64,000 nt of DNA, from positions 4,639,703 through 4,703,702 of the forward strand of contig NC_088301.1 of the NCBI RefSeq assembly GCF_032854445.1, written 5' to 3'. The stretch comes from Liolophura sinensis (lineage: Eukaryota > Mollusca > Polyplacophora > Chitonida > Chitonidae). Both the position numbers and the translations under genes were made by a program. The notes under the pieces are model-generated. The model worked only from the letters and a program-made list of their open reading frames with translations. It ran no database searches and was not told the DNA's origin. Below, one piece after another: positions 4,223 to 59,552 of this stretch (within the stretch, counting starts at the first letter, position 1; every line of letters begins with the position of its first letter).

Positions 4223-4340
4223 ATGGTCGTGGGTTTCCCCCAGGCTCTGCCCGGTTTCCACCCACCATAATGCTGGCCGCCGTCGTATAAGTGAAATATT
4301 CTTGAGTACGGCGTAAAAACACCAATCAAATAAATAAATA
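4223..4340 (+). mobile_element. SINE-1 family copy, 5'-truncated, with target site duplication
   Basis: This is the 3' part of the commonest dispersed repeat of the window: GGTTTCC-CACCCACCATAATG, then GCTGGCCGCCGTCGTATAAG, TGAAATATTCTTGAGTACGG, CACCAATCAAATAAATAAATA. It is flanked by perfect 12-bp direct repeats, ACAAATCATGCA at 4211-4222 and 4340-4351. The 5' truncation plus the duplication is the expected mark of target-primed reverse transcription. Confidence 0.9.
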
Positions 4341-16058: not shown

Positions 16059-16158
16059 AATTTATTTATTTATTTGACTGGTGTTTTACGCCGTACTCAA
16101 GAATATTTCATTTATACGACGGCGGCCAGCATTATGGTGGGAGGAAACCTCATGTAAA
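16059..16158 (-). mobile_element. SINE-1 family copy, 5'-truncated, minus strand
   Basis: Starts with the reversed tail ATTTATTTATTTATTTGACT and runs through ACGCCGTACTCAAGAATATT to GCATTATGGTGGGAGGAAAC. Possible imperfect target duplication TCATGTGAA at about 16052 and TCATGTAAA at about 16152. Confidence 0.85.
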
Positions 16159-17329: not shown

Positions 17330-17422
17330 ATGTACGCCCTCCTCTCCGGTTTGTGGAAGTACATGTTCCAGAAAGACGAATATTTCGTTTTGATTTTGGG
17401 ACTTGATAATGCAGGGAAAACC
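17330..17422 (+). CDS. ARFRP1: ARFRP1 coding exon 1
   Basis: 31 codons, from the start methionine to the P-loop GLDNAGKT; donor GTAAGT at 17423. Phase 0 end. Intron 1 (17423-18924) carries two SINE-1 copies. Confidence 0.97.
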
Positions 17423-20400
17423 GTAAGTTATTTTTATTTTCCCCTTTTTGTTGATATTTTCGAGCACCCTGGTTCTATCATTTTGTCATTTTTTATGCTA
17501 AGATCTACTTCATTACCTATCTCACCTGGGTTAAATTCCTTTATTTTCACCTCTGGTACTTTGTGTATTTATTTGATTGGTGTTTTCTGCCGCGCTAAAG
17601 AATATTTCACTCATATGACAGTGACCAGCATGGTGGGAGGAAAGATGGCTTGGGGGAAACCTACAGTGATCTACAGGTTGCTGGCAGGTCCCCATACATA
17701 TGGCCAGAGGCAACCAGCATGAACTGGACTTGAACTTACAGCCACTGCATTGGTGGGAAGCTTCCGGTCATTGTGCTTGGCTGTCGTGCTAACCCCTTCC
17801 TCCAGCACTTTAGTCGTGTGACCAAAGAATGTGTTGATGATTGGCTATGACATCTATGACAGCTATGACATCACTGCAAAAGTATGAATAGGCCTACCAA
17901 ATTTCATGCAGAGCCAAGAACAATTTTTCGATAGTTACATGTAGCACGAGATCATGAACTTAAGTAGAGTTATCAAAGTTGTAGTTTTCTTAGCAATATT
18001 GTCAATAATTAGGCTACCCACATCTTAGGAACAGTATTGGACCAAGCTTAAGTTCAGTCAGATACCGTTATTACAATCCTAGATCTGACAAAAAATGTAC
18101 ATTGTATTTATTTGTATTGTTACTGAACTCTATACTCAAGATATTTTTACTTATACAATGACAGTAAGTTTTAGAGGTTTAGCAACTTATTCCACATGTG
18201 ATGTACAAATAATACACACCATATTGGTGCAAGACAAATGGATCTCAACAAACATTAGAGTGTGCAAATGGCCACATGAGTATTACGGACTGGTCTTGGT
18301 CAGCAAAAAGTGAGTGCAGGGGAAATGTACAAATTCACCCCTTGTGTGTCTTTAGTGATCAAAAGTTACAGCCCACTCTTGTATTACATAGTATAGATAG
18401 GTGGCTCATACACACTAGACATAATTCTTCATTGTCAGGTGAATGAAAAATTGTTGACTGTGACATAAAGACCCAAGTAAACACACATACATGCATACAC
18501 ACTTGACACCAAACAATATTTTTGAGCAGGCAGCGGATGGACTTGGGTTCCCTCCAGGCTCTGCCCGGTTTCCTGCCAGCCTAATGCTGGCTGGCGTCAT
18601 ACAAGTGAAATATTCTTGAGTATGGCGTATAACACCAATCAGATAAATAAAACAATCAATGTCTTGAAACTAGTGAAATACTTGTTTTCTGGATGAAGTT
18701 GGAAGGATACTTTTTTTTCTATTTGCCTTCAGGCAGTATGGTATGACATGGATGAGAATACTTGAGGTGAAAACACCAGTATTTTATCTTTTGTCCCTTC
18801 TGAGTTTAACTACTGTAACCACGTTTCAGTTTGACATGTTCATTACCCGGGTATCCAGGGTTTCTCAATCTGAAGCCGTAATCATATCCACTAATGTTAA
18901 TAATATGAGACGTTTTATTTTCAGACCTACTTGGAACAGACAAAGACCAAATTCAACAAGAAGTACAAGGCCATGAACTTATCCAAGGTCACCACGACTG
19001 TTGGCCTCAATAGTAGGGTTTTCTGTGTTATTTGAAGGAGTTAAATGATTTACAAAGGATTATAGAAGATGAATGGATGTGTGAATTGATGTGTGGAAGG
19101 ATATGTGAATGGATGTGTGAATTGATGTGTGGAAGGATGTGTGAATTGATGTGTGGAAGGATTTGTGGATTGATGTGTGAATTGATGTTTGGAAGGATGT
19201 GCGAAAGGATGTGTGAATTGATGTGTGGAAGGATATATGAATGGATGTGTGAATTGATGTGTGGACGGATGTGTGAATGGATGCGTGGAAGGATGTGTGG
19301 AAGGATATGTGAATTGATGTGTGAATGGACTGTTATTTTTATTACAAACGCTAATTTTGATAAAATTTACTTCTCACAAATCTTTAGATCAGTCACATGA
19401 CCAGGTTGGGTGACTCTAAGCTAATTCATGTATTAATGAAAAAAAAATGATATGAACAGCTTAAAAAGAAAAAGAGAGAAAGATACAACTTGGAAGCAAA
19501 ACATACAATTTGACAACAGATGATTGGGCATGAAGCCTACAATACATGTACATCTTGTCGACTAAACCTGTTGTATTTGGCCGTATGTATAGGCTGAAAT
19601 AATATAGCTGTGTTTTCTGTTACAGTTGGTAAGATTGACATCGGCTCAACACGGCTCAACTTCTGGGACTTGGGAGGTCAAGAAGAGCTGCAGTCACTCT
19701 GGGATAAGGTCAGACACATCTTTACGTTATGCACTGGCATGTGTAGACACTTTCTCTGTGCACAGTCCACCATAGTTGTGGTAACGGAACGGAATGGACT
19801 ATTAATATATGGTCAAACAGTTGTCATCAAGTGTACTACAGAATGTAATTGGCTTCAAACGATGCTGTGAATGGGAACAAACTATTAAAATGAATCTGTG
19901 TTCAGGATTTCATTTTGATCTTGTCTGGTGCAGTATTCCGACTTCCTTCTTTACCTTATCTTACAGTATTGTGACTTCCTTCTTTATCTTGTCTGTTACA
20001 GTAGTGTGACTTCTTTCTTTACCTTGTCTGTTACATTATTCTGACTTCCTTCTTTATCTTGTCTGTTACAGTATTGTGACTTCCTTCTTTACCTTGTCTG
20101 TTACAGTATTCTGACTTCCTTCTTTATCTTGTCTGTTGCAGTATTCTGACTTCCTTCTTTACCTTGTCTGTTACAGGATTGTGACTTCCTTCTTTACCTT
20201 GTCTGTTACAGGATTCTGACTTCTTTATCTTGTCTGTTGCAGTATTCTGACTTCCCCCTTTATCTTGTCTGTTGCAGTATTCTGACTTCCCCCTTTATCT
20301 TGTCTGTTGCAGTATTCTGACTTCCCCCTTTATCTTGTCTGTTGTAGTATTCTGACTTCCCCCTTTATCTTGTCTGTTGCAGTGCTTTGGTTTCCTCATT

Positions 20401-23400
20401 TACCTTGTCTGTTGCAGTATTCTGACTTCCTTCTTTACCTTGTCTGTTGCAGTATTCTGACTTCCTTCTTTACTTTGTCTGTTACAGTATTCTGTCTTCC
20501 TTCCTTACATTGTCTGTTACAGTACCCTGACTTCCTTCTTTACCTTGTCTGTTACAGTACCCTGACTTCCTTCTTTACCTTGCCTGTTGCAGTATTCTGA
20601 CTTCCTTCTTTACTTTGTCTGTTGCAGTATTCTGACTTCCTTATTTACCTTGTCTGTTACAGTACCCTGACTTCCTTCTTTACCTTGTCCATTACAGTAC
20701 CCTGACTTCCTTCTTTACCTTGTCTGTTACAGTACTATGCTGAGTCCCATGCTGTCATCTATATTGTGGACTCCTCAGATCGAGAGAGAATAAGGGAGTC
20801 CAAACAAGCATTTGGTAAGGAGACATTGTCTTATCAGCAACTGATGATGTGTGGCCTGTTTTAGGAAGCAAATTTAATTATTAAGAATTTGTACATTGAT
20901 TACAAGTGGCCAGAACTGAATTGTTTGAGATATTTGTACCAGAACTTGAAACATTTGGAAATATTTATAACAAATAAATACAAACATTTTCTTGTCTGAA
21001 CCTCAATTTAGTAGGCATCCTTTCTAGTTCAGAAGTCTTAAGTGTTACTTCTGGAGTGTACTTCCCAATTAACACACTTACCCTTGTTTGTATCCACGTG
21101 TGGATAAATTCCTTACTGTCTTCTGTCTGTGTCATTGATATTGTCAACAAGGTGTGGAGATTTGCACCAGTAAAATAAATAAATACATCAGTTGAATTAC
21201 TGAGGTTCTATTCATGTTTGTCTTACCTGGCTTACAGTTGTGTGTGTGGAACAGCAATTTATCCCTGTGTTTGAGCAGCGTAATGCTGTGTAGTGTAGCA
21301 GCGTAATGGTGTGTAGTGTAGCAGCATAATGGTGTATAGTGTAGTGTAGCAGTGTATAATGTAGTCTAGCAGTGTAATGCTGTGGAGTGTAGCAGCATAA
21401 TGGTGGGTAGTGCAGCAGTGTAATAGTGTGGAGTGTAGCAGCGTAATGGTGGGTAGTGCAGCAGCGTAATGGTGGGTAGTGCAGCAGCGTAATGGTGGGT
21501 AGTGCAGCAGCGTAATGGTGTGTAGTGTAGTGTAGCAGCATAATGGTGTGTAGTGTAGCAGCATAATGGTGTGTAGTGTAGCAGCATAATGCCGTATAGT
21601 GTAGCAGTGTAATGCTGTGGAGTGTAGCAGCGTGATGGTGGGTAGTGCAGCAGCGTAATGGTGTGTAGTGCAGCATCGTAATGGTGTGTAGTGTAGTGTA
21701 GCAGCGTAATGGTGTGTAGTGTAGCAGCATAATGCCATATAGTGTAGCAATGTAATGCTGTGTAGTGTAGCAGCATAATGCTGTGTAGTCTAGCAGCGTA
21801 ATGGTGTGTAGTGTAGCAGCGTAATGGTGTGTAGTGTAGCAGCATAATGGTGTGTAGTGTAGCAGCGTAATGGTGTGTAGTGTAGCAGCATAATGCCATG
21901 TAGTGTAGCAGTGTAATGCTGTGTAGTGTAGCAGCATAATGCTGTGTAGTGTAGCAGCGTAATGCCGTGTAGTGTAGAGGCCTAAGGGTGTAGTGTAGCA
22001 GTGTAATGCTGTGTTGTGTAGCAGCGTAATGGTGGGTAGTGCAGCAGCGTAATGCTGTGTAGTGTAGCAGTGTAATACTGTGTAGTGTAGCAGCGTCATG
22101 CCGTGTAGTGTAGCAGCCTAATGGTGTGTAGTGTAGAAGCCTAATGGTGTGTAGTGTAGCAGTGTAATGCTGTGTAGTGTAGCAGTGTAATGCTGTGTAG
22201 TGTAGCAGTGTAATGCTGTGTAGTGTAGCAGTGTAATACTGTGTAGTGTAGCAGCGTAATGCCGTGTAGTGTAGCAGCATAATGCCATGTAGTGTAACAG
22301 CTTAATGCCATGTAGTGTAGCAGCATAATGCTTTGCCGTGTAGTGTAGCAGCATAATGCCGTGTAGTGTAGCAGCGTAATGGTGGGTAGTGTAGCAGTGT
22401 AATGCTGTGTAGTGTAGCAGTGTAATGCTGTGTAGTGTAGCAGCGTAATGCCGTGTAGTGTAGCAGCGTAATGCCGTGTAGTGTAGCAGCATAATGCCGT
22501 GTAGTGTAGCAGCATAATGCCGTGTACTGTAGTAGCATAATGCTGTGTATGGTAGCATTGTTACAGGTTTATCATGAACGTTTTGGAAATGATGTTTGAG
22601 TACAGATTCACAAACTTTTATGTTCTTTTCCCAGACTTGCTGATCACAAATGAAGCTCTGGGTGGACTGCCATTGTTGAGGTTTCTTGTTCTTTTCCCCA
22701 GACTTGCTGATTACAAATGAAGCTCTGGGTGGACTGCCACTGTTTATGTTTCATATTCTTTTCCTCAGACTTGCTGATCACAAATGAAGCTCTAGCTGGA
22801 GTACCACTGTTGATGCTGGCCAACAAACAGGATTTAGAGGTAATATGAGTGGCATAACAATTAAAAGAGGCGTTCATTCAGTGTGATTGTCAAGTTGAAT
22901 TTGACGAGTTTAACATAACATTTCATGCGATTGTAGCATTTGACAAATCACATCGTGATTTGAAAAGGGGCTTATGAAATGTACCTGTCAGTATTCATTC
23001 CACTTGTTGAATTCGACCAGTTGATGTGACAAACATCACTGAGTGAATACAATGTTATGGAGGGAGGAAACCTCAAACTGAAAAGAGCATTATGTTTTTG
23101 TCACAGTTTAGTTCTAATTAAGTGAAGTCACATGTTTGAATTTTTCAGTGAATAGTTGTTCAGTAAATAAATTTATGAAGTTTATAAATAAATAAAATTT
23201 GTTTTATTGTATAAGCCCGAGCAAATGTACATGCACACAGCATGCATTTGTCTCCACAGTTGGTCCTCATTCTAGATTTAATATACATGTAGACTCTTAA
23301 AGATTGCATTAAACTATAGACTTCTTGGAAGGGAGCCAGCAGAAGCTCATTTTTGTAACACATTGTAACACATTTGTAACACTTGAAGATAATTGCCCTA

Positions 23401-24689
23401 GTCCACAGGACAATATTGGATTTGTCTGTTTCTTATTTCTTTGTTCCGGGAGCAGGATGTACATGTAGGCTCTGCATCATGACAATGTTGAGCAATTCCA
23501 ACCGTGCGTTACTGTCCTGGCACTTAACAAGGAATGTCTCGATTACCCCGTTCTCATTGTGTGTGGGCCCTTGGGGGCAAAAAGTGGTCAGTGACATTCC
23601 TGTGGCTAAGACTACTTGTCTTGCCCCAATATGGCTTCGTTGGTTACCTCCGGGCGATCTGATTTATTCCACTTGTAGATTGACTACTGTGGTAAATGTG
23701 AAAAGTCATTCAGTACTGGTATGGTGGTAAAGAGCAAATAGACAATTACATACTCTCCTGTTATTGTAGGGTTGTATGACAGTTGGTGATGTTAGGAAAA
23801 TATTCCGAGAAAGCTCACATTTGATTGGTCACCGTGAGTGTATGATGGCAGGTGTTTCTGCTCTGAAGGGGTAAGTACTCCGCGAATATACCTGTTTTGA
23901 GGGTAAATATACCTAGTTTGGGTACAAATTACCTTCTGCATGCATGTGGTGGGAATATTTATTTGGTGTGGGCCAGAGTGGGGGTTGCAGCAAAGATACC
24001 TGATTTGTGGACTTGTTACCTTGTTCATGTATACAGGGAAAAGACACCTGGAATATAGTCTAATTATACCTGGATGGGGAACAGATATGTCTTGTTTGGG
24101 TTAAATATACCTGGTACGCAGACTGATTACCTGCTTCAGGGACAAATATACCTGGAATTTGAACAGATATGTCTGGTTTAAGCAAATATACCTGATTTGG
24201 GTGCAAGTATACCTGGTTTGTGAACAGATATTCCAGGCGTAAGCAAATACACCTAGTTTGGGAGCAGGTTTACCAGGCGTAAGCAAATATACCTGGTTTG
24301 GGAGCAGGTATACAAGGTGTAAGCAGATATACCTGGTCTGGGTGCAGATATACGCGGTTTGGGTACAGATATACCTGGTTTGGGTGCAAATTTGGACCAG
24401 ATCAACGTGATTTAAGCAAATATATTTGCTGAGGGTTGAACACAAACAATATGTAAATCAGTATAGCTTGGCCAAGACATCACATTTAGCCTAAAGGTCT
24501 TGCATCGCCAATGTCAAGACTCAACCATTCAGCATTTATTTTGTTTGTCTTTGGGAAGGATTCAAGCAATCAACTAACCGTCTTGTTGTTTACAGGGATG
24601 GTGTGGATGAGGGTATTGATTGGCTGGTTCAGGCTGTACAACGTAACAACATTCACCGTCCTCCCACGCAGAAAGACATCACCCGATAG
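17330..24689 (+). CDS. ARFRP1: ARFRP1, ADP-ribosylation factor-related protein 1 (Arf-like GTPase), complete, 7 coding exons
   Basis: Small GTPase of the Arf/Arl family. The family member is known to act at the trans-Golgi network, where its GTP form recruits ARL1 and thereby golgins. Exons: 17330-17422, 18925-19012, 19626-19708, 20733-20814, 22769-22839, 23770-23870, 24596-24689 (stop TAG at 24687). All introns are GT-AG; phases are 0, 1, 0, 1, 0, 2. The product is 203 residues (human about 201). Visible motifs: P-loop GLDNAGKT (24-31), switch 1 TTTVGLN (54-60), WDLGGQE (74-80, catalytic Gln79), NKQD (134-137), SAL (169-171), and the family-typical FWDLGGQEELQSLWDKYYAE. The N-terminus MYALLSGL has no Gly2, so no myristoylation, as in ARFRP1/yeast Arl3. 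An in-frame ATG at 17300 would add ten residues; the 17330 ATG is chosen because it matches the family start. Introns 2, 3, 4 and 6 each carry a different minisatellite. Confidence 0.97.
17558..17803 (-). mobile_element. SINE-1 family copy in ARFRP1 intron 1, nearly full length, minus strand
   Basis: Reversed tail GTATTTATTTGATTGGTGTT, then AAGAATATTTCACTCATATG, GTGGGAGGAAAG, AACCAGCATGAACTGGACTT and the reversed tRNA-like head (GTCGTGCTAACC) at about 17787. It is diverged by substitutions and small indels. The open frame that runs on from exon 1 into it (to 17722) is intron read-through. Confidence 0.85.
18528..18650 (+). mobile_element. SINE-1 family copy in ARFRP1 intron 1, 5'-truncated
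   Basis: CAGGCTCTGCCCGGTTTCCT, then AATGCTGGCTGGCGTC, AAGTGAAATATTCTTGAGTA and CACCAATCAGATAAATAAAA mark the SINE-1 3' half. Orientation is opposite to the other copy in this intron. Confidence 0.87.
18925..19012 (+). CDS. ARFRP1: ARFRP1 coding exon 2
   Basis: Acceptor TTTTATTTTCAG at 18913-18924, then 29 codons plus one base. It encodes TYLEQTKTKFNKKYKAMNLS and the switch 1 part KVTTTVGLN. Donor GTAGGG at 19013. Confidence 0.96.
19070..19330. repeat. 12-bp minisatellite in ARFRP1 intron 2
   Basis: About 21 copies of a 12-bp module (GATGTGTGAATT, GATGTGTGGAAG, GATATGTGAATG variants). The array is stop-free in one frame (19032-19400), giving a Met/Cys/Glu-rich open frame that is an artefact. 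It begins about 60 bp after the exon 2 donor. Confidence 0.93.
19626..19708 (+). CDS. ARFRP1: ARFRP1 coding exon 3
   Basis: Acceptor TTTTCTGTTACAG ending at 19625. With the last base of exon 2 it reads IGKIDIG and then STRLNFWDLGGQEELQSLWD-K, the G3 region. Donor GTCAGA at 19709, weaker than consensus. Confidence 0.96.
19918..20732 (+). repeat. 35-bp minisatellite made of copies of the intron 3 splice acceptor of ARFRP1
   Basis: About 23 tandem units, each a pyrimidine tract (CTTCCTTCTTTACCTTGTCT) then GTTACAG or GTTGCAG and TATTCTGA/TACCCTGA. The last unit is the real acceptor of exon 4: its intronic part is the same as consensus units and the exon begins TACT where units have TACC or TATT. 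One unit has lost the AG (TTACAT, near 20035) and one is shorter (near 20220). If an upstream unit were used, one or two extra units (35 or 70 nt) would shift the frame, and three would run into a TGA in the unit. Confidence 0.95.
20733..20814 (+). CDS. ARFRP1: ARFRP1 coding exon 4
   Basis: Begins directly after the acceptor array. It encodes YYAESHAVIYIVDSSDRERI then RESKQAF, plus one base; donor GTAAGG at 20815. The family counterpart has YYAECHGVIYVIDS. Confidence 0.96.
21274..22558. repeat. 23-bp minisatellite in ARFRP1 intron 4, ~55 copies
   Basis: The unit starts AGCAGCGTAATGCTGTG and ends TAGTGT; 23 bp (AGCAGC at 21274 and 21297). Variants alternate GCGTAATGG, GCATAATGCC and GTGTAATGC. 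23 is not a multiple of three, so a reading frame repeats every 69 nt; minus-strand open frames of about 300 codons (21212-22280) with Tyr/His/Thr/Leu-rich products are artefacts of stop-free units. Confidence 0.95.
22605..22768 (+). repeat. tandem partial copies of the intron 4/exon 5 boundary of ARFRP1 (67-bp period)
   Basis: The acceptor and first ~39-45 bases of exon 5 occur three times, exon starts 22635, 22702 and 22769, exactly 67 bp apart. Copies 1 and 2 have a TTCTTTTCCC(C)AG acceptor and then ACTTGCTGAT-ACAAATGAAG, but break off after the codons for a DLLITNEALGGLPL-like peptide. Only the third continues to the NKQD motif. Copies 1 and 2 share CTGGGTGGACTGCCA, while the real exon has CTAGCTGGAGTACCA, so the two decoys are closer to each other. 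Confidence 0.93.
22769..22839 (+). CDS. ARFRP1: ARFRP1 coding exon 5
   Basis: Acceptor TTTTCCTCAG; completes the Asp codon begun in exon 4 and reads LLITNEALAGVPLLMLANKQ then DLE, with the G4 motif NKQD. Donor GTAATA at 22840. Two partial copies of its 5' half lie just upstream. Intron 5 (22840-23769) holds no array or SINE that I can see. Confidence 0.96.
23770..23870 (+). CDS. ARFRP1: ARFRP1 coding exon 6
   Basis: Acceptor TGTTATTGTAG; reads GCMTVGDVRKIFRESSHLIG then HRECMMAGVSALK, ending with two bases of a Gly codon. SAL is the G5 motif. Donor GTAAGT at 23871. Confidence 0.96.
23880..24445. repeat. ~21-bp minisatellite in ARFRP1 intron 6
   Basis: A degenerate module such as GATATACCTGGTTTGGGTACA repeats with 20-22-bp spacing; some modules carry AGGCGTAAGCAAATA. 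It occupies most of the 725-bp intron. A minus-strand frame (24101-24445) with TQTRYIC repeats is an artefact. Confidence 0.9.
24596..24689 (+). CDS. ARFRP1: ARFRP1 coding exon 7 with stop
   Basis: Acceptor TTGTTTACAG; completes Gly173 and reads DGVDEGIDWLVQAVQRNNIH then RPPTQKDITR and TAG. This matches the conserved C-terminus of the family (GI-W, V-RN-HRPP, DIT). Confidence 0.96.
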
Positions 24690-27955: not shown

Positions 27956-28243
27956 GGGGCCTCCGTGGCCAAAGGAGTGGGGGGGGGGGGGGCGGGGGTA
28001 GAATGCCAGTGCAGCGCAATGACCAAGGAGCCTCCCACCAATGCGGTTGTTGTGAGTTCAAGTCCAGCTCATGCTGGCTTCCTCTCTAGCTGTACGTTGG
28101 AAGGGCTGCCAGCAACCTCTAGATGGTTGTGATTTTCCTGCGGGCGCTGCCTGCTTTCCTCCCACCACCATGCTTGCCGCCGTTGTGCAAGTGAAATATT
28201 CTTCAGTACTGCATTGAAACACCTATCAAATAAATAAATAAGT
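27956..28243 (+). mobile_element. SINE-1 family copy, near full length, with G-run insertion
   Basis: Head GGGGCCTCCGTGGCCAAAGG, CAGCGCAATGACC, B-box-like GTTGTGAGTTCAAGTCCAGC, then CTCATGCTGGCTTCCTCTCT, the TTTCCTCCCACCACCATGCT block, AAGTGAAATATTCTTCAGTA and CAAATAAATAAATAAG. A run of about 13 G plus a C-G patch at 27980-28000 interrupts the tRNA-like head between the A and B boxes. Confidence 0.9.
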
Positions 28244-28609
28244 AAAGAAATCGATGAAGTGTGGCGCACATACAAAGATTAATGACTTTAGCCTGTTGCA
28301 TGGACTGGCAGTATTATGCTCTAGGTGGAAATTCCTCCTCCAAGTCTAGTCACTGAGCCATTATGATTGGTATAAAAGGATTGGTTGTACATGAAGTATT
28401 GCTAGATGAGGGATTTGACAGTGGCATAGCAAGTTCACATTTCTTTTCATTCATGTATTGTAGTTGAAAAAGAACCTGATTTATGTTTGTAAATAACCAT
28501 GGAAAATAAAAACAGACAGGTTATGAAGCCTGTTTTCTTGTCATGATGCCATGAAGATTTTGTTGCTGCCATTGTTTAATTCAGTAGGGATCTTTCCACT
28601 TGAACTTTA

Positions 28610-34414: not shown

Positions 34415-35690
34415 CTAGATAACGTGACAGGGCATCCAGATAACGTGACACAGGGTATCTTCCAGGACTGTCCAGATAACGTGACAAAGGGTATCTTCTA
34501 CGCCTGTCCAGATAATGTGACGCAGTTTATCTTCCAAGACTGTCCAGATAACGTGACACAGGGTATCTTCCAGGACTGTCCAGATAACGTGACACAGGGT
34601 ATCTTTCAGGACTGCCCAGATAAAGTGACACAGGGTATCTTCTATGACTGTCCAGATTATGTGACACAGGGTATCTTCCAGGACTGTCCAGATAACGTGA
34701 CACAGGGTATCTTCCAGGGCTGTCCAGATAACGTGACACAGGGTATCTTCCAGGACTGTCCAGATAACATGACACAGGGTATCTTCACAACTGTCCAGAT
34801 AACGTGACACAGGGTATCTTCCAGGACTGCCCAGATAAAGTGACACAGGGTATCTTCTACGACTGTCAAGATAACATGACACAGGGTATCTTCCAGGACT
34901 GCCCAGATAACATGACACAGGGTATCTTTCAGGACTGTCCAGATAAAGTGACACAGGGTATCTTCTATGACTGTCCAGATAACATGACACAGGGTATCTT
35001 CCAGGACTGTCCAGATAACGTGACACAGGGTATCTTCCAGGACTGTCCAGATAACGTGACACAGGGTATCTTCTACGACTGTCAAAATAACATGACACAG
35101 GATATCTTCTATAACTGTCCAGATAATGTGACGCAGGTTATCTTCCAGGACGGTCCAGATAAAGTGACACGGGTTATCTTTCAGAACTGTCCAGATAACG
35201 TGACACAGGGTATCTTTCAGGACTGCCCAGATAAAGTGACAAAGGGTATCTTCTATGACTGTCCAGATAACGTGACACAGGGTATCTTCCAGGACTGTCC
35301 AGATAACGTGACACAGGGTATCTTCCAGGACTGTCCAGATAACGTGACACAGGGTATATTCTATGACTGTCCAGACAATGTGACACAGGGTATCTTCCAG
35401 GACTGTCCAGATAACGTGACACAGGGTATCTTCTACGACTGTCAAGACAACATGATACAGGGTATCTTCCAGGACTGTCCAGATAACATGACACAGGGTA
35501 TCTTCCAGGACTGTCCAGATAACGTGACACAGGGTATCTTCTACGACCGTCAAGATAATGTGACACAGGGTATTTTCAACGACTGTCCAGATAACGTGAC
35601 ACAGGGTATCTTCCAGAACTGTCCAGATAACGTGACATGGTATCTTCTACGACTGTCCAGATAACGTGACACACACTATCTTCCACGACT
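34415..35690. repeat. 36-bp minisatellite, ~35 copies
   Basis: The unit reads GATAACGTGACACAGGGTAT then CTTCCAGGACTGTCCA, 36 bp. Length divisible by three and absence of stops make it open on both strands (plus 34382-34807 and 34804-35664, joined across a 1-bp deletion near 34790; minus to 298 codons). The plus frame would give 12-residue repeats DNVTQGIFQDCP. The commonest changes turn ACGTG into ACATG or ATGTG, i.e. CpG decay to CA and TG, including changes of Val to Met, which argues for neutral, methylated, non-coding DNA. Confidence 0.95.
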
Positions 35691-38900: not shown

Positions 38901-39431
38901 TCCAGAAGTTCCATTAGCAATGTGAAAAAGCCAGAGCCTTGATCTACAACAAAATAGAAACCCACAGATCTACATGTACTTGGCAATGTAACAGAAAGCC
39001 GAAAGTTAAAAATGTGAGTATGACTGAAAGCCAGAGGTTCAAATGTGAGAATGACTGAAAGTCAGAGGTTCAAATGTGAGAATGACTGAAAGCCAGAGGT
39101 TTAAAAGTGAGAGTGATCGAAAGCTGGAGGTTTAAATGTGAGTATGACTGAAAGCTGGAGGTTCAAATGTGAGTATGACTGAATGCTGGAGGTTCAAATG
39201 TGAGAATGACTGAAAACCAGAGGTTGAAATGTGAGAATGACTGAAAGCCAGAGGTTTAAAAGTGAGAGTGATCGAAAGCTGGAGGTTTAAATGTGAGTAT
39301 GACTGAAAGCTGGAGGTTCAAATGTGAGTATGACTGAATGCTGGAGGTTCAAATGTGAGAGTGACTGAAAACCAGAGGTTGAAATGTGAGAATGACTGAA
39401 AGCCCAAGGCTCAAGTGTGAGTATGACTGAA

Positions 39432-39615
39432 TTTTATTTATTTATTTATTTGACTGGTGTTTTACGCCGTACTCAAGAATATTTCACTTATACAATGGCG
39501 GTCAGCATTATGATGGGAGGAAACCGGACAGAGCCCGGAGGGGAAATCCATGACCATCCAGGTTGCTGCAGACCCTCCCACTTACGGCCGGAGAGGAAGC
39601 CAGCATGAGCTGGCA
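39432..39615 (-). mobile_element. SINE-1 family copy inside the 31-bp array (first), minus strand
   Basis: Reversed tail TTTATTTATTTATTTATTTG, then TACGCCGTACTCAAGAATAT, GGCGGTCAGCATTATGATGG, ACGGCCGGAGAGGAAGCCAG and CATGAGCTGG. The tRNA-like head is missing. Confidence 0.9.
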
Positions 39616-39784
39616 GAGTATGACTGAAAGCCAGAGATCCAAATGTGAGAAAGACTGAAAGTCAGAGGTTCAAATGTGAGTATGATTAAAAGCCAGAGGT
39701 TCAAATGTGAGTATGATTAAAAGCCAGAGGTTCAAATGTGAGTATGACTGAAAGCCCAAGGCTCAAGTGTGAGTATGACTGAAT

Positions 39785-39975
39785 TTTATTTATTTATTTA
39801 TTTATTTGACTGGTGTTTTACGCCGTACTCAAGAATATTTCACTTATACAATGGCGGTCAGCATTATGATGGGAGGAAACCGGACAGAGCCCGGAGGGGA
39901 AATCCATGACCATCCAGGTTGCTGCAGACCCTCCCACTTACGGCCGGAGAGGAAGCCAGCATGAGCTGGCAGAGT
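39785..39975 (-). mobile_element. SINE-1 family copy inside the 31-bp array (second), minus strand
   Basis: Virtually identical to the copy at 39432, including the same 5' truncation point and the same flanking array sequence (GAGTATGACTGAATTTTATT on one side, GCAGAGTATGACTGAAAGCC on the other). The tail has one more TTTA. Confidence 0.9.
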
Positions 39976-40235
39976 ATGACTGAAAGCCAGAGATCCAAAT
40001 GTGAGAAAGACTGAAAGTCAGAGGTTCAAATGTGAGTATGATTAAAAGCCAGAGGTTCAAATGTGAGTATGATTAAAAGCCAGAGGTTCAAATGTGAGTA
40101 TGACTGAAAGCCAAAGGCTCAAATGTGAGTATGACTGAAAGCCAGGGGTTCACATGTTTGTATGACTGAAAGCCAGAGATTCAAATGTGACTATAACTGA
40201 AAGCCAGAGGTTCAAATGTGAGTGTGATAGAAAGT

Positions 40236-41795
40236 CAGAGGCTGAAATGTATCTCTACTAAACAGATAACAAGGAGATTACATGGAAACAGAACAGAAAA
40301 CAAGATTATATGAAAAACAAAGTTCAAATATAAATTGCCAAAGTCTGCCATGGGTAAGGGAACAACCTGAATTCTACTGATACATGTAATGACCCATCTG
40401 GATTTCATTTGTAAGCTCTTCAAGATGACTATAAGACTTGCTATGAAATAAAAACTTTCCAAAATGTAACGCAACTTTTCACCTACTAGGATGAAATGTG
40501 AATGGCCATAGCTTAATACAATGAAGCCTCTAAACAAAACTGTGATGGAAGACATGCTGAGGGTCAGAATTAAACCTACATGCAGCTGGAATACCAAGTA
40601 TTGTGTGTTTTAATATGACAAATCCTTATGTACATATCTATGGTAAAGTATATAATACACTGTACACATACATGGACATGTCCAGGTGGACAGGAATGGG
40701 GAATCTGTTTATACATACATATTTAAATAGTGTTAAATGTTTGGTGACAAGCCGACAGGCGGATCAGGTGTCGTCATCACACACTTTCTCACTAGTTCTC
40801 ATCACTTCAAATAATCATCTGGATTCATACAAAAATGCCCCCATATCTACACTTTTATCACTATATGAACAAAAATCACAGCTCAAAATAATAATAATAA
40901 TAATAATGATAATAATACAAGTAATAATATCTCATTACTTTCTGATTAGAAGTATCACGGAGTGAATGCGCTGACACAACTGTCACCCTGAACTGTCACA
41001 ATAAAGCCCAGCACTGGATAACTGATCTGTAGTGCTTTGATTGCTAGGCAATGTAACTCACTTAATAACCCGTCAAACCTTTCTAAATACAATACCGAAA
41101 ATACCTAATTTTGAGTTGTCTTTTCGTAGCTATAATATCAACGACATAATATCAAATGACACTACTGCTGAATATAACATCTTACCACTGTGGGGCTGAG
41201 GGCTAGACCAATTGTGAGGGTGAGGGTGAAGGTGTGGTGCCAGCTATCACATTGGTATTCCAATCTGAGATCAACCAGTAAAAACGCATACAGATTGGCA
41301 TCTTTTGAGAACCTGTTGCATGCCAGTATCAACGACCAACCTGCAACAGGCCAGATTACAAATTCATGGATATCACCCACAAAATAGTATACACATCACC
41401 ATGTGGGATGGTGCCCTTTTGAACTCAATCAGATTAAAACAAGAGTCACAATCTGGGGGATGAGAGAAAACACTAGAGAAGTGACTTCGTCCAGCTGTTC
41501 CTTTTGGATTGACACATGAGACATCAATTCAAACTCTAAAATGATACAGAAATCACCTTCCACGGTCTGACTTTTTGAGATCCATTGGATAGAAAAATAG
41601 TGTGGAAAAGTAGTTCCTCAGTTGAAGAAATAGTCCTCTTGCTGTAAAGCCCTCTGTTGGCAGGGTGAAGATGCACCTCCATAGGTAACTTACTGTTGGC
41701 TCATTAACAGGTGAGCAGGGCAGGTAAGACTAGAAATAGGGTGGTTAGCCCATTGAGCATAACACACTAGCTACAGGTCAGCTGGCACGGTTACC
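40236..41795 (-). other. 3' flank (and likely 3' UTR) of the minus-strand Nudix gene
   Basis: Lies downstream of the stop codon at 41796. No further coding sequence recognised. A minus-strand 120-codon hydrophobic open frame at 40235-40597 resembles no family I know. The closest poly(A)-like hexamer I see on the minus strand is ATTAAA near 40608; the transcript end is not determined. An AAT microsatellite lies at about 40886-40925. Confidence 0.35.
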
Positions 41796-44900: not shown

Positions 44901-47389
44901 ATTTATCTTTTGGTATCCTCTATTCCTGTTCTAATCTTGTTTTTGCATACTGATTATACATGAACATTGTAACTCCCTACCTTGAAGAAATTTTTTTTTT
45001 TTTTATTTATTATTTATTTATTTATTTGATTGGGGCTTTACGCCGTACTCAAGAATATTTCACTTATACGACGGCGGCCAGCATTATGGTGGGAGGAAAC
45101 CGGGTAGAGCCCGGGGGAAACCCATGACCATCCGTAGGTTGCTGGCAGACCTTCCCACTTACGGCCGGAGAGGAAGCCAGCATGAGCTGGACTCACAGCG
45201 ACCGCACTGGTGAGAGGCTTCTGGGTCATTACGCTGCGCTAACGTGCTAACCAACTGAGCCACGGAGGCCCCTCCCTACCTCGAAGAAAAGATGCTTTAT
45301 TATCCTGTGGGCCTAATTTATATATATATGTAGGCTTTGGTTTTCTAAACAATATTTCAGTCATACAAAGGAGTCATTTGGTGTGTGAACATGTACTGTG
45401 TTTTCTTGTGGCAGGGCGAGACCATGCAGCCAAAAATATGGGTCTACTCAGTGAAAGACAAAAATATTAAGACACTAGCATGCTTCTTAATTTTGGAATC
45501 TGATTTTATTTATATCCGTAAAATCTATAAAATATATTTATTTATTATTTATTTATTTGATTGGTGTTTTACACCGTGCTCAAGAATATTTCATTTATAC
45601 GACGGCGGCCAGCATTATGGTAGGTGGAAATCGGGCAGAGCCCGGAGGAAACCCACGACCATCCGCAGGGTGCTGCAGACCTTCCTATGTACCGCCAGAG
45701 AGGAAGCCAGCATGAGCTGGACTTGAACTCACAGCGACCGCATTGGTGAGAGACTCCTGGGTCATTACGCTGCGCTAGCGTGCTAACCAACAATGTACAG
45801 TATAATATAAGACAGTGGTGTATCAAGCAATCTTTGTGCACGCCTTTATTTTATTTTCCTAGAAAACAGAATCGAATGACACAAAGAAAAATTTAAATGT
45901 ACCATTTATTACGTACTCTTTACAGGATAGGGCAAATGAAGCTTGAAAATTTGTAAATACACATTTCAGCTGCTTCATTAAACACTTAGTTCAAAGAGTC
46001 CAAAGCCATAAAAACTTTATGTCCAAATCTAGAATTCCTATTCTGAAGGACACAGAAGTCCCTGCGTCCAACCCTGCAAGATGTTTACTGACTTTGTTTG
46101 TAACAGTTGATATGGCAAATCAACAACCCTGCCAAGTGTGCATGTATGTGTGTGTAATTTATAGATCTAATAATTATAATAATTATACTTTATTTTCTGA
46201 GTGAGAGCAATTAGTTACAAAACCAATCTTGCTTGAGTCAATCACACATTCACACAAAAGGTTATTTACAAAGTCTATACAGTATATATAAAAGATAGAT
46301 GAACATGTATGTATAAAGTACACTATCTACTGCAGATCCCTAGAGACAGACACACCCAATGTGACATCACCTTATAAACTGTCCACATCTGCATGTACTT
46401 TGATGGCAGAGCAAAATTATTCTCCAGTGTCTATACGCTCATATATTTTATATCCAATTACTGTATGCACATGAACAAGTAATAAGCCTTCATTTACCTA
46501 TTATGAAAATTTGTGATGGACAAAATCTTCCCATTAATGTCAAGTGTCTTAAGTTCTCAGGACGTCTAAATTAATAAAGATAGACACGGTTCTGGATTCT
46601 CTAAATTATCTTTAGCTTAAGATGAAGATACGGGAGGCTGAAAAACAATCTCACGTTGCTAACCCTAAATCCATCTTAACGTCATATGTTTCACATGATT
46701 ATTTTTCTTAGTTTTTTACATGTTAAAGGAATGCCTGAAGAAAAAAAATGTTTGATTTTGACCTCACAGGGAGAACAATAGTAATTCATAATGGATCAGA
46801 AAGCGTTATTTTTGCAAACATGAGATGAGTACAGTGTATGTGAGAAAAATTGATTTTCAGCATAAACGTCAGTTTGGATTATTTCTGACTGATAATAATA
46901 CTTCATTTGATAATACATTTACTTTAGCAGTCCTTCAGTAGTTCTTTAGTAGTCCTTCAGTAGTCCTGCTGTAGCTCTATAACAATAGTCCTGCCATAGT
47001 CCTTCAGTAGTCCTGCTATAGTCCTGCAGTAGTTCTTCAATAGTCCTGCAGTAGTTCTTTAGTAGTCCTGCAGTAGTCCTGCAGTAGTCTTGCAATAGTC
47101 CTGCAATAGTCCTGCCATAGTCCTTCAGTAGTCCTGCAGTAGTCCTTCAGTAGTCCTGCAGCAGTAAGCTGCACTACATACACAAGACTAAAGTTGATGA
47201 CAACTCCCATGCTGTACAAAAATATGGTCTCACCTCAAAAACACCCAGGTGTCTGCCGAGCTCTCCCCGCACCCCTGCCTCCTCCAGTATCTCCCTCTTA
47301 GCAGCATTTTCTGGGTCTTCTAGAGGCTCCACCCCTCCCCCAGGTACCACCCACCTGTCCGGCATTCGACTACTGGACACCAGCAATAC
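41796..47389 (-). CDS. NUDT3: diphosphoinositol polyphosphate phosphohydrolase (DIPP, NUDT3/NUDT4-like), 3' three coding exons; first exon not in view
   Basis: Nudix hydrolase of the DIPP family, known to remove the beta-phosphate from diphosphoinositol polyphosphates (PP-InsP5 to InsP6) and to cleave diadenosine polyphosphates, in the cytosol. Minus-strand exons: 47389-47234, 43749-43665, 41905-41796 (stop TGA at 41798-41796); intron phases 0 and 1. They encode 116 residues, VLLVSSSRMPDRWVVPGGG to EHEKVT. The Nudix box is intact: G-x5-E-x7-REILEEAGV (residues 18-40 of the visible part, Glu36 and Glu37 for metal). RKHRTLVYV, TELLEEWED and GRKRKWF match NUDT3/NUDT4. The C-terminus is shorter than the human one, ending soon after the VNYLDLL helix. 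The family's first exon (about 33 residues with a TYD.DG..RRAAC-like motif) was looked for to the right and not found. Paralogue choice within NUDT3/4/10/11 cannot be made here. Confidence 0.93.
41906..43664 (-). other. DIPP/NUDT3-like intron between the last two exons
   Basis: 1.76 kb. Contains short diverged repeats of a phrase (ATACACCAGA near 42130 and 42310) but no array or SINE that is clear. A plus-strand 72-codon frame at 42794-43012 has no recognised family. Confidence 0.5.
43665..43749 (-). CDS. NUDT3: DIPP/NUDT3-like middle exon
   Basis: Minus strand: acceptor ATCATCAG, then NVDRKHRTLVYVFIATELLE and EWEDLRSM plus one base; donor GTAAGT. Matches N-ERKHRTYVYVL-VTE-LEDWED of human NUDT3. 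Confidence 0.94.
43765..43806 (-). mobile_element. SINE-1 tail fragment, minus strand
   Basis: ATTCATTTATTTATTTGATT then GGTGTTTTATGCTGTACTC only; a very short 5'-truncated copy 15 bp upstream (in gene direction) of the middle exon's acceptor. Confidence 0.7.
43807..44990 (-). other. DIPP/NUDT3-like intron, left part
   Basis: AT-rich, nothing recognised. Confidence 0.4.
44991..45271 (-). mobile_element. SINE-1 family, full-length copy with 18-bp target site duplication, minus strand
   Basis: Complete copy: reversed tail, TACGCCGTACTCAAGAATAT, ACGACGGCGGCCAGCATTAT, GGTGGGAGGAAACCGGG, GGCCGGAGAGGAAGCCAGCA, reversed B box (GGACTCACAGCGACC), and reversed head GTGCTAACCAACTGAGCCAC-GGAGGCCCC with an A box. 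Flanks CTCCCTACCTTGAAGAAA (44973-44990) and CTCCCTACCTCGAAGAAA (45272-45289) differ at one base. This copy defines the family: tRNA-derived head, a conserved middle, and an AAATAAATA tail. Confidence 0.95.
45532..45791 (-). mobile_element. SINE-1 family, near full-length copy, minus strand
   Basis: Reversed tail TTTATTATTTATTTATTTGA, CACCGTGCTCAAGAATATTT, GCCAGCATTATGGTAGGTGG, GAGGAAGCCAGCATGAGCTG, ACTTGAACTCACAGCGACCG and GCGCTAGCGTGCTAACCAAC; the head ends just short of the full copy at 45.0 kb. Confidence 0.92.
45792..46920 (-). other. DIPP/NUDT3-like intron, middle part
   Basis: AT-rich, nothing recognised beyond short low-complexity runs. Confidence 0.4.
46925..47166. repeat. 11-bp minisatellite, ~22 copies
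   Basis: Modules AGTCCTGCAGT and AGTCCTTCAGT alternate, 11 bp each, with some shorter or changed ones. It lies about 70 bp from the donor of the Nudix-box exon. Confidence 0.9.
47234..47389 (-). CDS. NUDT3: DIPP/NUDT3-like exon with the Nudix box
   Basis: Minus strand: acceptor GCGTTTGTGCAG, 52 whole codons VLLVSSSRMPDRWVVPGGGV, EPLEDPENAAKREILEEAGV, RGELGRHLGVFE, donor GTGAGA. The family exon boundary before VLLVSSS is the same in vertebrate NUDT3. Confidence 0.95.
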
Positions 47390-49363: not shown

Positions 49364-50125
49364 GAAGAGGACCACCACAGCCAGCTACATGTACAATAAT
49401 CGCGATCAAACGAGACAATCATCTCAGGCATCCCCAGGGAAATGTTTTATTAGTTTGGCTCAGAGACAGCATCCGCCTTCAACCAGATTTGTGCTTTATT
49501 ACCGCTATGGAACATTACCTCAATGCTCAGAGCTATACGGGCCATATAATGCCTGCTCTACTCTCAGCAATTGGATGTAGGTGGTGGATACACAAGACAA
49601 ATCCCACAGGTTCCCAATGTATACACAAGGTATCCTGTAGCTCTATAACATCCATTAGATTAGGGTGCATCAAAATACTCATTCATTTACTTAAATTCAT
49701 TTACTACATGATACAACAAATCTACACATCTGGATTATGTAACAAGTAGATCAGTATGGTACTAAGGACAGTGAGGTTGACAGGGTGTATACAGGTATCT
49801 ACATGTCAGGGAAACAGTTTCATTACATGCATGTACACTGTGGTATTTCCATATTAACAATTCATTCCCAACTGATGTGTGGCGAAATCTGGTATTTTTC
49901 CAACTAAAGTCCATAGGAACTGAGAAAATTATTTAGTAACCACATCGCATTCACATATCCTCAGGTACAAGGATTTTTGTCATCAGATTATTATATCATC
50001 ATCCATCACATGATATCAGTACATGTGTCTGTCACAGGACATCAATATCAGTCAGATATATGTGACAAACTTTATCTGTGAGTAGCATAATGTTAGAGAT
50101 ACATGTTATCAGTTTGATTACTTCA
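49364..50125. other. gene-free stretch
   Basis: No gene recognised; single-copy-looking DNA. Confidence 0.4.
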
Positions 50126-50129
50126 GGGC

Positions 50130-52430
50130 AACATCATGTCAGTCATTACCTCAGGGCAACATCAGGTTAGTCACATCACCTCAAAGCAACACCATGTCAG
50201 TCACACCACCTCAGAGCAACACCATGTCAATCACACCACCTCAAAGCAACACCAAGTTGGTCACACTGACTTAGAACACTGCCATATCAGTCACATCCCC
50301 TCAGAGCAACACCACGTCAGTCACATCACCTTAATAGAACACCACCATGTCAGCCACACCACCTCAGAGCAACATCATTTCAGTCACACTAACTTAGAGC
50401 ACCACCATATCAGTCACATCACCTCAGAGCAACATCATGTCAGTCACACCACCTTAGAGCACCACCATATCGGTCACATCACCTCAGAGCAACATCATGT
50501 CGCTCACACCACCTTAGAGCACCACCATATCAGTCACATCACCTCAGAGCAACATCATGTCAGTCACACCACCTAAGAGCACCACCATATCAGTCACATC
50601 ACCTCAGAGCAACGTCATGTCAGTCACACCACCTTAGAGCACCACCATATCAGTCACATCACCTCAGAGCAACATCATATCAGTCACACCATCTTAGAGC
50701 ACCACCATATCGGTCACATCACCTCAGAGCAACATCATGTCGCTCACACCACCTTAGAGCACCACCATATCAGTCACATCACCTCAGAGCAACATCATGT
50801 CAGTCACACCACCTAAGAGCACCACCATATCAGTCACATCACCTCAGAGCAACATCATGTCACTCACACCACCTTAGAACACCACCATATCAGTCACATC
50901 ACCTCAGAGCAACACCACGTCAGTCACATCACCTTAATAGAACACCACCATGTCAGCCACACCACCTCAGAGCAACATCATTTCAGTCACACAACCTTAG
51001 AACACCGCCATATCAGTCACATCACCTCAGAGCAACACCATGTCAGTCACATCACCTTAATAGAACACCACCATGTCCATCACATCACCTCAGAGCAACA
51101 TCATGTCAGTCACACCAACTCAGAACACTGCCATATCAGTCACATCACCTCAGAGCAACACCACGTCAGTCACATCACCTTAATAGAACACCACCATGTC
51201 CATCACATCACCTCAGAGCAACATCATGTCAGTCACACCACCTTAGAGCAACACCATATCGGTCACATCACCTCAGAGCAACACCATGTCAGTCACACCA
51301 CCTTAGAGCACCACCATATCAGTCACATCACCTCAGAGCAACATCATGTCAGTCACACCACCTTAGAGCACCACCATATCAGTCACATCACCTCAAAGCA
51401 ACATCATGTCAGTCAAATCATCTTAGAGCACCACCATATCAGTCACATCACCTCAGAGCAACATCATGTCAGTCACATCACCTCAGAGCAACATCATGTC
51501 AGTCACACCAACTCAGAACACTGCCATATCAGTCACATCACCTCAGAGCAACATCACGTCAGTCACATCCCCTTAATAGAACACCACCATGTCAGCCACA
51601 CCACCTAAGAGCAACATCATTCAGTCACACCACCTTAGAACACCGACATATCAGTCACATCACCTAAGAGCAACACCACGTCAGTCACATCACCTTAATA
51701 GAACACCACCATGTCCATCACATCACCTCAGAGCAACATCATGTCAGTCACACCACCTTAGAGCACCACCATATCGGTCACATCACCTCAGAGCAACACC
51801 ATGTCAGTCACACCACCTTAGAGCACCACCATATCAGTCACATCACCTCAGAGCAACATCATGTCAGTCACACCAACTCAGAACACTGCCATATCAGTCA
51901 CATCACCTCAGAGCAACACCACGTCAGTCACATCACCTTAATAGAACACCACCATGTCCCTCACAGTCACACCACCTTAGAGCACCACCATATCAGTCAC
52001 ATCACCTCAGAGCAACATCATGTCAGTCACACCACCTTAGAGCACCACCATATCAGTCACATCACCTCAAAGCAACATCATGTCAGTCACATCACCTCAG
52101 AGCAACACCACGTCAGTCACATCACCTTAATAGAACACCACCATGTCCATCACATCACCTCAGAGCAACATCATGTCAGTCACACCACCTTAGAGCACCA
52201 CCATATCGGTCACATCACCTCAGAGCAACACCATGTCAGTCACACCACCTTAGAGCACCACCATATCAGTCACATCACCTCAGAGCAACATCATGTCAGT
52301 CACACCAACTCAGAACACTGCCATATCAGTCATATCACCTCAGAGCAACATCACGTCAGTCACATCACCTTAACAGAACACCACATCAGTCACATCACCT
52401 CAGAGCAACACCATGTCCGTCACATGACCA
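50130..52430. repeat. 30-bp minisatellite organised as 60-bp dimers and longer blocks, ~2.3 kb
   Basis: Modules CACCTCAGAGCAACATCATG-TCAGTCACAC and CACCTTAGAGCACCACCATA-TCAGTCACAT alternate to form a 60-bp dimer. A third module carrying CACCTTAATAGAACACCACC appears at intervals (about 50328, 50932, 51053, 51177, 51571, 51690, 51936, 52126) and marks larger copied blocks. Stop-free stretches such as 51589-52443 are artefacts. It is the longest array in the window. Confidence 0.95.
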
Positions 52431-53067
52431 CAGGTTTGGTTAATTAAGCTGTACAGACATGCACCTGGTATCACTGATCGTTCTCAGTTCATAAATACAT
52501 GTACATATATATCATAACCCTTACTGGTTTATTCTGCTCAACAGAGGCCCATTAATTATGACATGACAGGAGTGTGGTGGGCATGCTACATATCACTTTT
52601 ACCTATAAATACATGACATGCAATTTTAGCTCGAATGTCTCCCATGGTAACATCAACAAAGCTTTGCACAAACTCAAATGAAAATGGAGGCAAAAATTTT
52701 CTTAAACTGCAGACCATAACCCATTCAAACTTTGTTAAATTTGTTTTTGGTCAACTTAAATACCCGGCATACACACTATGCACGTAAGCTTTATATACAT
52801 GTATTTAGGTCAGTTTTCATTGCTGTAATTAAAATCATATCAGTTACATGTATAGGTCAACCAATAATATTACAAAAAAATAATCGTGCTCTATTTTGTG
52901 TTTAATCGTTCTTTGTGTTTAATTAAACTTGAGGCCTTGGCCTAGCTAGACAACTTATCCAGATGTAAAACAGTGAATTGATTACTATCTTTGATGTGTA
53001 AACAACTAATCTAAGAATACATTTTGTGTCTTCTGGATTTCACACAAGTGTGAACATGAGCTTAAGT
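52431..53067. other. gene-free stretch
   Basis: AT-rich, nothing recognised. Confidence 0.4.
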
Positions 53068-53293
53068 TTGATTTTGATTTGATTGGTGTTTTATGTCATG
53101 CTCAAGAAAATTTCACTGATACGATGGCAGCCAGCATTATAATGGGAGGAAACTGGGCAGAGCACGGGGGAAACCCACAACTATCTGCAGGTTGCGGACA
53201 GACCTTTCCACATACAGCTGGAGAGGAAGCCAGCATGAGCTGAACTTGAACTCACAGCAACCACATTGGTGAGAGGCCCCTGGGTCATTACGC
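53068..53293 (-). mobile_element. SINE-1 family copy, diverged, minus strand
   Basis: GATTTGATTGGTGTTTTATG, CTCAAGAAAATTTCACTGAT, GCAGCCAGCATTATAATGGG, GAGGAAGCCAGCATGAGCTG and GAACTCACAGCAACC, ending CATTACGCTGTATG; the head is missing. Confidence 0.88.
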
Positions 53294-53312
53294 TGTATGT
53301 TTGAATACCTAC

Positions 53313-59291: not shown

Positions 59292-59552
59292 TTGGGGGCC
59301 TCTGGGGCCAAGGTGTTTAGAGTGCCTGCACAGCGCAATGACCCAGAAGCCTTTCAACAATGTGGTCGCTGTGAGTTCAAGTCAGCTTATGCTGGCTTCC
59401 TCTCCTGCCATATGCGGGCAGTAACCTGCCAACTGTCTTGGGTTACCACAGACTCTGTCTGGTTTCCTCCCACCATAATGATGGCTGCTGTCATATAAGT
59501 GCAATATTCTTAGGTGCAGCATATAAAAACAATCAAACAAATAAATAAGTTT
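59292..59552 (+). mobile_element. SINE-1 family, near full-length copy with degenerate target duplication
   Basis: Head GGGGCCTCTGGGGCCAAGGT, CACAGCGCAATGACCCAGAA, B box CTGTGAGTTCAAGTCAGC, TTATGCTGGCTTCCTCTCCT, TTTCCTCCCACCATAATGAT, ATAAGTGCAATATTCTTAGG and AATCAAACAAATAAATAAG. Flanks TAATGTAATT (59283) and TAATGTGATT (59554) are a likely target duplication. Confidence 0.9.

Follow-up and report, generated by a model that had tools for sequence, protein, structure and literature searches.

Intron 3 of a gene for an Arf family protein in the chiton Liolophura sinensis ends in a tandem array of its own 3' splice site, with 24 unit ends at a period of 35 bp. The gene lies in a stretch of 64,000 nucleotides that was analyzed as a whole (the window; positions 4639703-4703702 of contig NC_088301.1, G000:C7) in a 609-Mb genome. 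We regard it as probable that this array is a minisatellite spanning the intron-exon junction, of the type known from lancelets as a 'mirage', whose last unit would be used by exon definition and which would be tolerated as a by-product. A second array covers the acceptor of exon 5 in the same gene, and arrays of this kind recur at acceptors and donors of other genes.

The gene occupies positions 17330-24689 on the forward strand and encodes a complete protein of 203 amino acids in seven exons, namely coding exon 1 (17330-17422), exon 2 (18925-19012), exon 3 (19626-19708, with the donor GATAAG/gtcaga), exon 4 (20733-20814), exon 5 (22769-22839), exon 6 (23770-23870) and exon 7 including the stop (24596-24689). 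Its product carries the Arf domain PF00025 at residues 10-186 (Pfam, E 6.7e-47), which places it in the Arf family, and a search of solved structures with this protein lists other Arf and Arl proteins. The gene is presumably ARFRP1, judged by sequence motifs; hence, we refer to it as ARFRP1-like. It is single-copy, as close matches to its exons are found at one genomic place only. Among 50 genome matches, no processed copy or fossil cDNA of the gene was seen, and matches outside the locus show at most 43% identity.

Tandem Repeats Finder (TRF) reports the array at 19920-20734 on the forward strand with 23.5 copies, 89% matches and a score of 1140, compared with a top score of 59 when intron 3 was dinucleotide-shuffled 100 times. 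This agrees with a preliminary description of the sequence, which had proposed that the acceptor is amplified at the end of this intron. Stepping upstream from the exon-4 boundary, the unit ends follow each other at a spacing of 35 nt, except for one of 31 and one of 33 nt. An AG is present at 23/24 unit ends (in one case as TAG). The final one is the acceptor of exon 4, and of the 23 upstream copies, or decoys, 22 are thus intact; the unit that has lost its AG (20002-20036) reads ACAT. From AG to AG, a typical unit is TATTCTGACTTCCTTCTTTACCTTGTCTGTTACAG, which consists of CTGAC, a pyrimidine tract and AG, and the last unit (20698-20732) likewise combines CTGAC, a pyrimidine tract and CAG. The CTGAC motif, a likely branch point, is located 24-28 nt upstream of 16/24 unit ends, the true acceptor among them. 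Because these three elements occur together, most units resemble complete 3' splice sites. With regard to unit content, the preliminary description was right about the tract and the AG, to which the CTGAC is added in many units, and overstated the exonic share: exon-4 bases are limited to TAC plus TG in some units, and the array reaches only to +2 of exon 4. Among the 14 of 24 units nearest to exon 4, neighbors are 90.5% identical, compared with 86.0% for all pairs, as expected from local duplication.

Only the last unit yields an intact reading frame and a continuous Arf domain, and its use would join exon 3 to TACTATGCTGAG; this had been anticipated, as had the ruinous effect of any other choice. 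Splicing to any of the 31 AGs that precede the true one in intron 3 would bring in a premature stop. As the 35-nt period is not divisible by three and a TGA occurs in most units, all frames are usually covered within three units. Splice site strength was scored with a matrix trained on this genome's own acceptors (120 of the sampled regions described below). The exon-4 acceptor scores 4.5 and ranks 13th of the 25 AGs in the array stretch, with two decoys reaching 7.7. Therefore, the last unit is not marked by strength, as had also been suspected. What distinguishes it is its neighbor: exon 4, with 82 nt (YYAESHAVIYIVDSSDRERIRESKQAF), carries the purine runs GAGAGAGAA and AAGGGAG and is followed by the donor GTAAGG, whereas purine runs of at least 6 nt are absent from the array. 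Serine/arginine-rich (SR) proteins bind purine runs of this kind. Since strength fails to mark the last unit and the adjoining exon does, exon definition appears to be the likeliest basis of the choice.

The array differs from two known arrangements of clustered splice sites. In NAGNAG and similar close tandem acceptors, the alternative sites are separated by a few nt and use a common branch point. The chiton array is like them in offering more than one usable acceptor per exon, but its units are 35 nt apart, each with its own tract and mostly with its own branch-like motif, and it is not of the NAGNAG type. At recursive splice sites, an AG is followed immediately by a GT donor; units in the ARFRP1-like gene read AG followed by TA, GA or TG and do not have this form.

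In the same gene, three copies of a 67-bp unit (22616-22813 on the forward strand, TRF) comprise the acceptor of intron 4 and 45-47 nt from the start of exon 5. Two decoy exon starts precede the exon (at 22635 and 22702, spanning 22635-22768), each with its own intact acceptor, and both lead to a stop; exon 5 itself is the third copy, which alone continues into the remaining exon and its donor. While the intron-3 array crosses its boundary narrowly, this one does so plainly, extending to +45 of the exon, and its acceptor is not specially weak with a score of 5.7.

How common such arrays are was estimated from 180 exon regions of the genome, comprising 89/130 kinesin, 36/107 Arf and 55/78 myosin matches. 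Selected were matches without internal stop, and tandem gene clusters were mostly omitted; a single Arf match interrupted by a TAG is included, and the Arf regions represent 36 of 38 shortlisted exons. The Arf loci L003-L032 stand outside the count and the PF00122 matches (n=8) were not used. Acceptors were assigned with the genome-trained matrix and donors by a simple consensus score, which left 166 unique acceptors and 142 unique donors. TRF arrays cover 4/166 acceptors, three of them clearly (L037, L108 and L173), and 3/142 donors (L075, L197 and L200), in addition to a weak donor case (L073). This amounts to 6/308 clear junction arrays (1.9%, 95% interval 0.7-4.2%), all of them in kinesin and myosin genes. 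Acceptors and donors are both affected in the sample, and acceptors only in the ARFRP1-like gene. The amplified acceptor, which the preliminary description had presented as a singular oddity, is therefore one member of a class, of which a second member lies in the same gene and which has a name in lancelets.

The individual cases vary in unit length and copy number. Among the acceptors, that of the kinesin exon L037 lies in 12 copies of a 64-bp unit (8/11 decoys intact) and that of the kinesin exon L108 in an array of 27-bp units with 22 GTCAG ends including the true one, the decoys here being counted by pattern. The acceptor of L173, a myosin exon encoding SGESGAGKT, lies in 43 copies of a 32-bp unit (40/42 intact). 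The fourth acceptor, L114 (28 copies, 13/14 decoys intact), was kept apart as ambiguous, since a later CTTCAG might be where its exon begins. Among the donors, L075 has 17 copies of a 63-bp unit (3/3 decoys intact, counted in region L075 only), L197 18 copies of 31 bp (17/17) and L200 six copies of 31 bp (5/5); L073 was set aside since its array has only 2.4 copies at 76% matches. The 32-mer across the junction recurs upstream at 30-32 of 32 positions for L037, L108, L173 and L114, and at no more than 21 for the other acceptors (22 with a longer search stretch). In a swapped-locus control (109 probes x 8), the 99.9% point was 23, with one pair at 32 and with some of the regions overlapping. 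In each clear case, the protein match points to the copy touching the exon as the true site, i.e. the last for acceptors and the first for donors; for L075, where the program had picked a later copy, inspection of the sequence led to the first one being taken as the donor. The true donor is nearer to GTRAGT than the decoys shown in L075 (GTAAGA versus GTAATG) and L197 (GTGAGT versus GTCAGT and similar), and not in L200, which are too few cases to interpret. Units of L108 and L173 read AG followed by GT; if a decoy served as an acceptor there, a donor-like site would arise with it, in the manner of recursive splicing. A second genome match of the intron-3 array itself (L002) turned out to be an unrelated 37-bp array resembling it by chance and was rejected.

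As a general trend, the acceptor shows no sign of acting as a barrier to arrays, because array ends are found inside the exon no less readily than at other positions, and it is the exon that does stop them. Within -380 to +80 of the exon start, 19 array 3' ends fall at -380 to -60, six at -59 to -1, four at 0 to +25 (L114 included) and none deeper; those inside exons reach 7-23 nt in. The distal density predicts about 1.5 ends at 0 to +25, where four were counted; this slight excess over the intron rests on too few ends for a claim. Nor was special targeting of acceptors found, as clear donor arrays are equally common (3/142 versus 3/166). Furthermore, the AG is no better kept than the rest of the unit: across the 23 intron-3 decoys, 14 of 22 other columns between -20 and +4 match or surpass the weaker of the two AG columns in conservation, and in L037, L173, L114 and the donor arrays 14 to 22 of 22 other columns equal or exceed the AG or GT. 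An apparent excess of conservation at these columns in a whole-unit comparison was gone when the comparison was redone in the well-aligned stretch around the junction.

Tandem repeats across exon-intron boundaries have been named mirages in lancelets, where, according to the passages of the report on which we draw, they affect both 3' and 5' boundaries, many with AG or GT, and show length and somatic instability; reverse transcription polymerase chain reaction suggests undisturbed splicing there, and a model of intron gain is put forward (PMC3087553). Corresponding passages of a further study add a mirage in PGBD5 and state that the Adh and TnC mirages do not produce aberrant mRNAs (PMC3902484). 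As in these lancelet genes (Adh3, the globins BflGb6 and BflGb9, TnC and PGBD5), many but not all of the chiton units keep AG or GT, and authentic sections can be told from duplicates (PMC3087553, PMC3902484). Compared with what the same passages give, the chiton units measure 27-67 bp, in contrast to 150-160 bp in lancelet globins and a cited 10-72 bp in Adh3, and they reach up to 43 copies, in contrast to 3-6 in BflGb6. Moreover, the lancelet mirages come with expression data and length polymorphism, whereas the chiton arrays are known from the sequence of one haplotype. By all features tested, namely boundary span, retention of AG or GT and presence at both acceptors and donors, the chiton arrays would be classed as mirage-type. 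Internal tandem repeats in human segmental duplications likewise represent intragenic minisatellite growth that touches splicing, but there the extent of exons and introns changes among recent paralogs, and arrays of a single splice site are not mentioned in the passages concerned (PMC2812944). Within the open-licence literature, judged by title and start of abstract, no junction array was recognised in a mollusc, and a report elsewhere is possible. A paper on cone-snail gene structure describes, in the part consulted, intronic microsatellites only (PMC3862624), and no word starting with 'tandem' or 'satellite' occurs in the main text of the Liolophura japonica genome paper, which also presents a multi-tissue transcriptome (PMC11068029).

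Taken together, the array may have started with a short tandem duplication that took in the final ~30 nt of intron 3 together with a few initial bases of exon 4, and could then have expanded to about 24 copies by unequal exchange or slippage, leaving only the last copy abutting the exon. Exon definition by exon 4 (its length, its SR-type purine runs and its GTAAGG donor) would select this copy, while the pyrimidine-rich upstream units would be ignored or yield stop-containing transcripts that are then degraded. The array is thus probably a nearly neutral, tolerated by-product of a genome freely making minisatellites rather than a selected device. Several observations speak against this interpretation. 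Twelve earlier AGs outscore the true site, and two of these precede a G, with which exons commonly begin in this genome; use of the last unit follows from the frame and the Arf match only. The CTGAC motif is not enriched before 114 reference acceptors (three sites at -18 to -40, 1.14 per 1000 nt, versus 1.27 further up), with looser forms of it showing weak enrichment only, and the counts behind the lack of a barrier are small.

An alternative explanation would see the array as a dosage valve, in which use of decoys produces stop-bearing, degraded transcripts and gene output is adjusted through copy number. The premature stop behind every upstream AG and the many decoys scoring at least as high as the true site would fit such a function. 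However, stops are expected by chance within tens of nt of such sequence, and they also follow the decoys of unrelated arrays (40/40 intact decoys in L173, 8/8 in L037, 19/21 in L108 and 2/2 at exon 5), which argues against a special design. As the lancelet cases are, in the passages cited, reported to yield normal mRNA (PMC3087553, PMC3902484), we consider a valve unlikely.

It is still more doubtful that selection keeps the array because many branch point and tract modules aid a weak acceptor, for example by a higher local load of U2AF and U2 small nuclear ribonucleoprotein. The exon-4 acceptor indeed scores just under 4.6, the 5% point for the 114 reference acceptors, which were pre-filtered at >3, the AG is kept in nearly all decoys, and over whole units the signal columns are 97.9% conserved, compared with 88.9% for the mean column. 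Yet these columns do not stand out within -20 to +4, where the alignment is sound, donor arrays are as frequent as acceptor arrays, and the exon-5 acceptor was amplified without special weakness.

We think it very improbable that the array was collapsed or invented during assembly. A single assembly is available, with 14X HiFi coverage in the section of the genome paper that reports it (PMC11068029), but according to the same section the HiFi reads average 8,347 bp (PMC11068029), far more than the 0.8-kb array; in addition, the units differ, neighbors are more alike, and independent arrays of the same type exist elsewhere. That an upstream unit is the true exon-4 acceptor, with part of the array translated, is hardly credible in spite of the intact decoys, given the stop after each upstream AG and the continuous Arf domain obtained from the last unit alone.

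Tandem repeats are also abundant beyond these junctions. Arrays with a period of at least 10 make up 40% of the ARFRP1-like gene and 24% of the window (35 arrays), and those with a period of at least 6 about 8% of the sampled exon surroundings, which makes the gene unusually array-rich. It further contains a 23-bp x 55 minisatellite in intron 4, away from junctions (21274-22557, + strand, TRF), and a 12/36/60-bp minisatellite in intron 2 that ends 296 nt before exon 3 (19070-19329, + strand, TRF). The genome paper gives, in the section concerned, 0.08% for simple repeat, microsatellite and RNA (PMC11068029), and minisatellites may be under-annotated there. Two arrays, 34435-35690 (36-bp x 35, both strands) and 50123-52433 (30-bp x 76, + strand), contain long open frames because the unit length is a multiple of three; these probably reflect chance openness rather than genes. 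None of ten window open reading frames has a Pfam match at E 0.01. A dispersed repeat, possibly a short interspersed element, occurs on both strands with ~90-240 bp per match and 74-96% identity between copies (4223-4340, 16060-16149, 18534-18651, 28011-28251, 39434-39613, 39785-39969, 45006-45236, 45537-45773, 53073-53295 and 59328-59548). Intron 1 of the ARFRP1-like gene holds a diverged copy (17566-17794), and at 39010-40250 a 31-bp minisatellite appears to engulf two copies, resulting in a 356-bp higher-order period. Elsewhere in the genome, a cluster of Arf domains (G000:C1:37678903-37720981, L006-L021) comprises at least 16 similar-scoring matches ~2.4 kb apart.

As far as the literature was searched, mirage-type arrays are hereby found in a new phylum, where they are apparently common, and lancelet-type mirages are not confined to lancelets. 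A frequency of about 2% of sampled junctions would mean that such arrays characterise the genome and are no mere curiosity. More speculatively, and on balance rather improbably, chiton introns may hold thousands of multiplied acceptors and donors, with the choice of the exon-adjacent copy among up to 40 being routine and array length acting as a heritable, fast-changing dial on the loss to mis-splicing. How the spliceosome chooses among identical sites (by scanning, proximity or exon context) is a question that was posed with duplicated-site constructs in the 1980s; in those globin-intron test genes, identical tandem sites reportedly compete for one partner. Those constructs were laboratory products with few sites, whereas the chiton offers natural arrays of 3 to 43 near-identical sites in several genes of one animal, and the question would be answered by counting junctions in ordinary RNA data. 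Models of intron gain from such repeats, as outlined in passages of the lancelet report (PMC3087553), could likewise be examined in the chiton.

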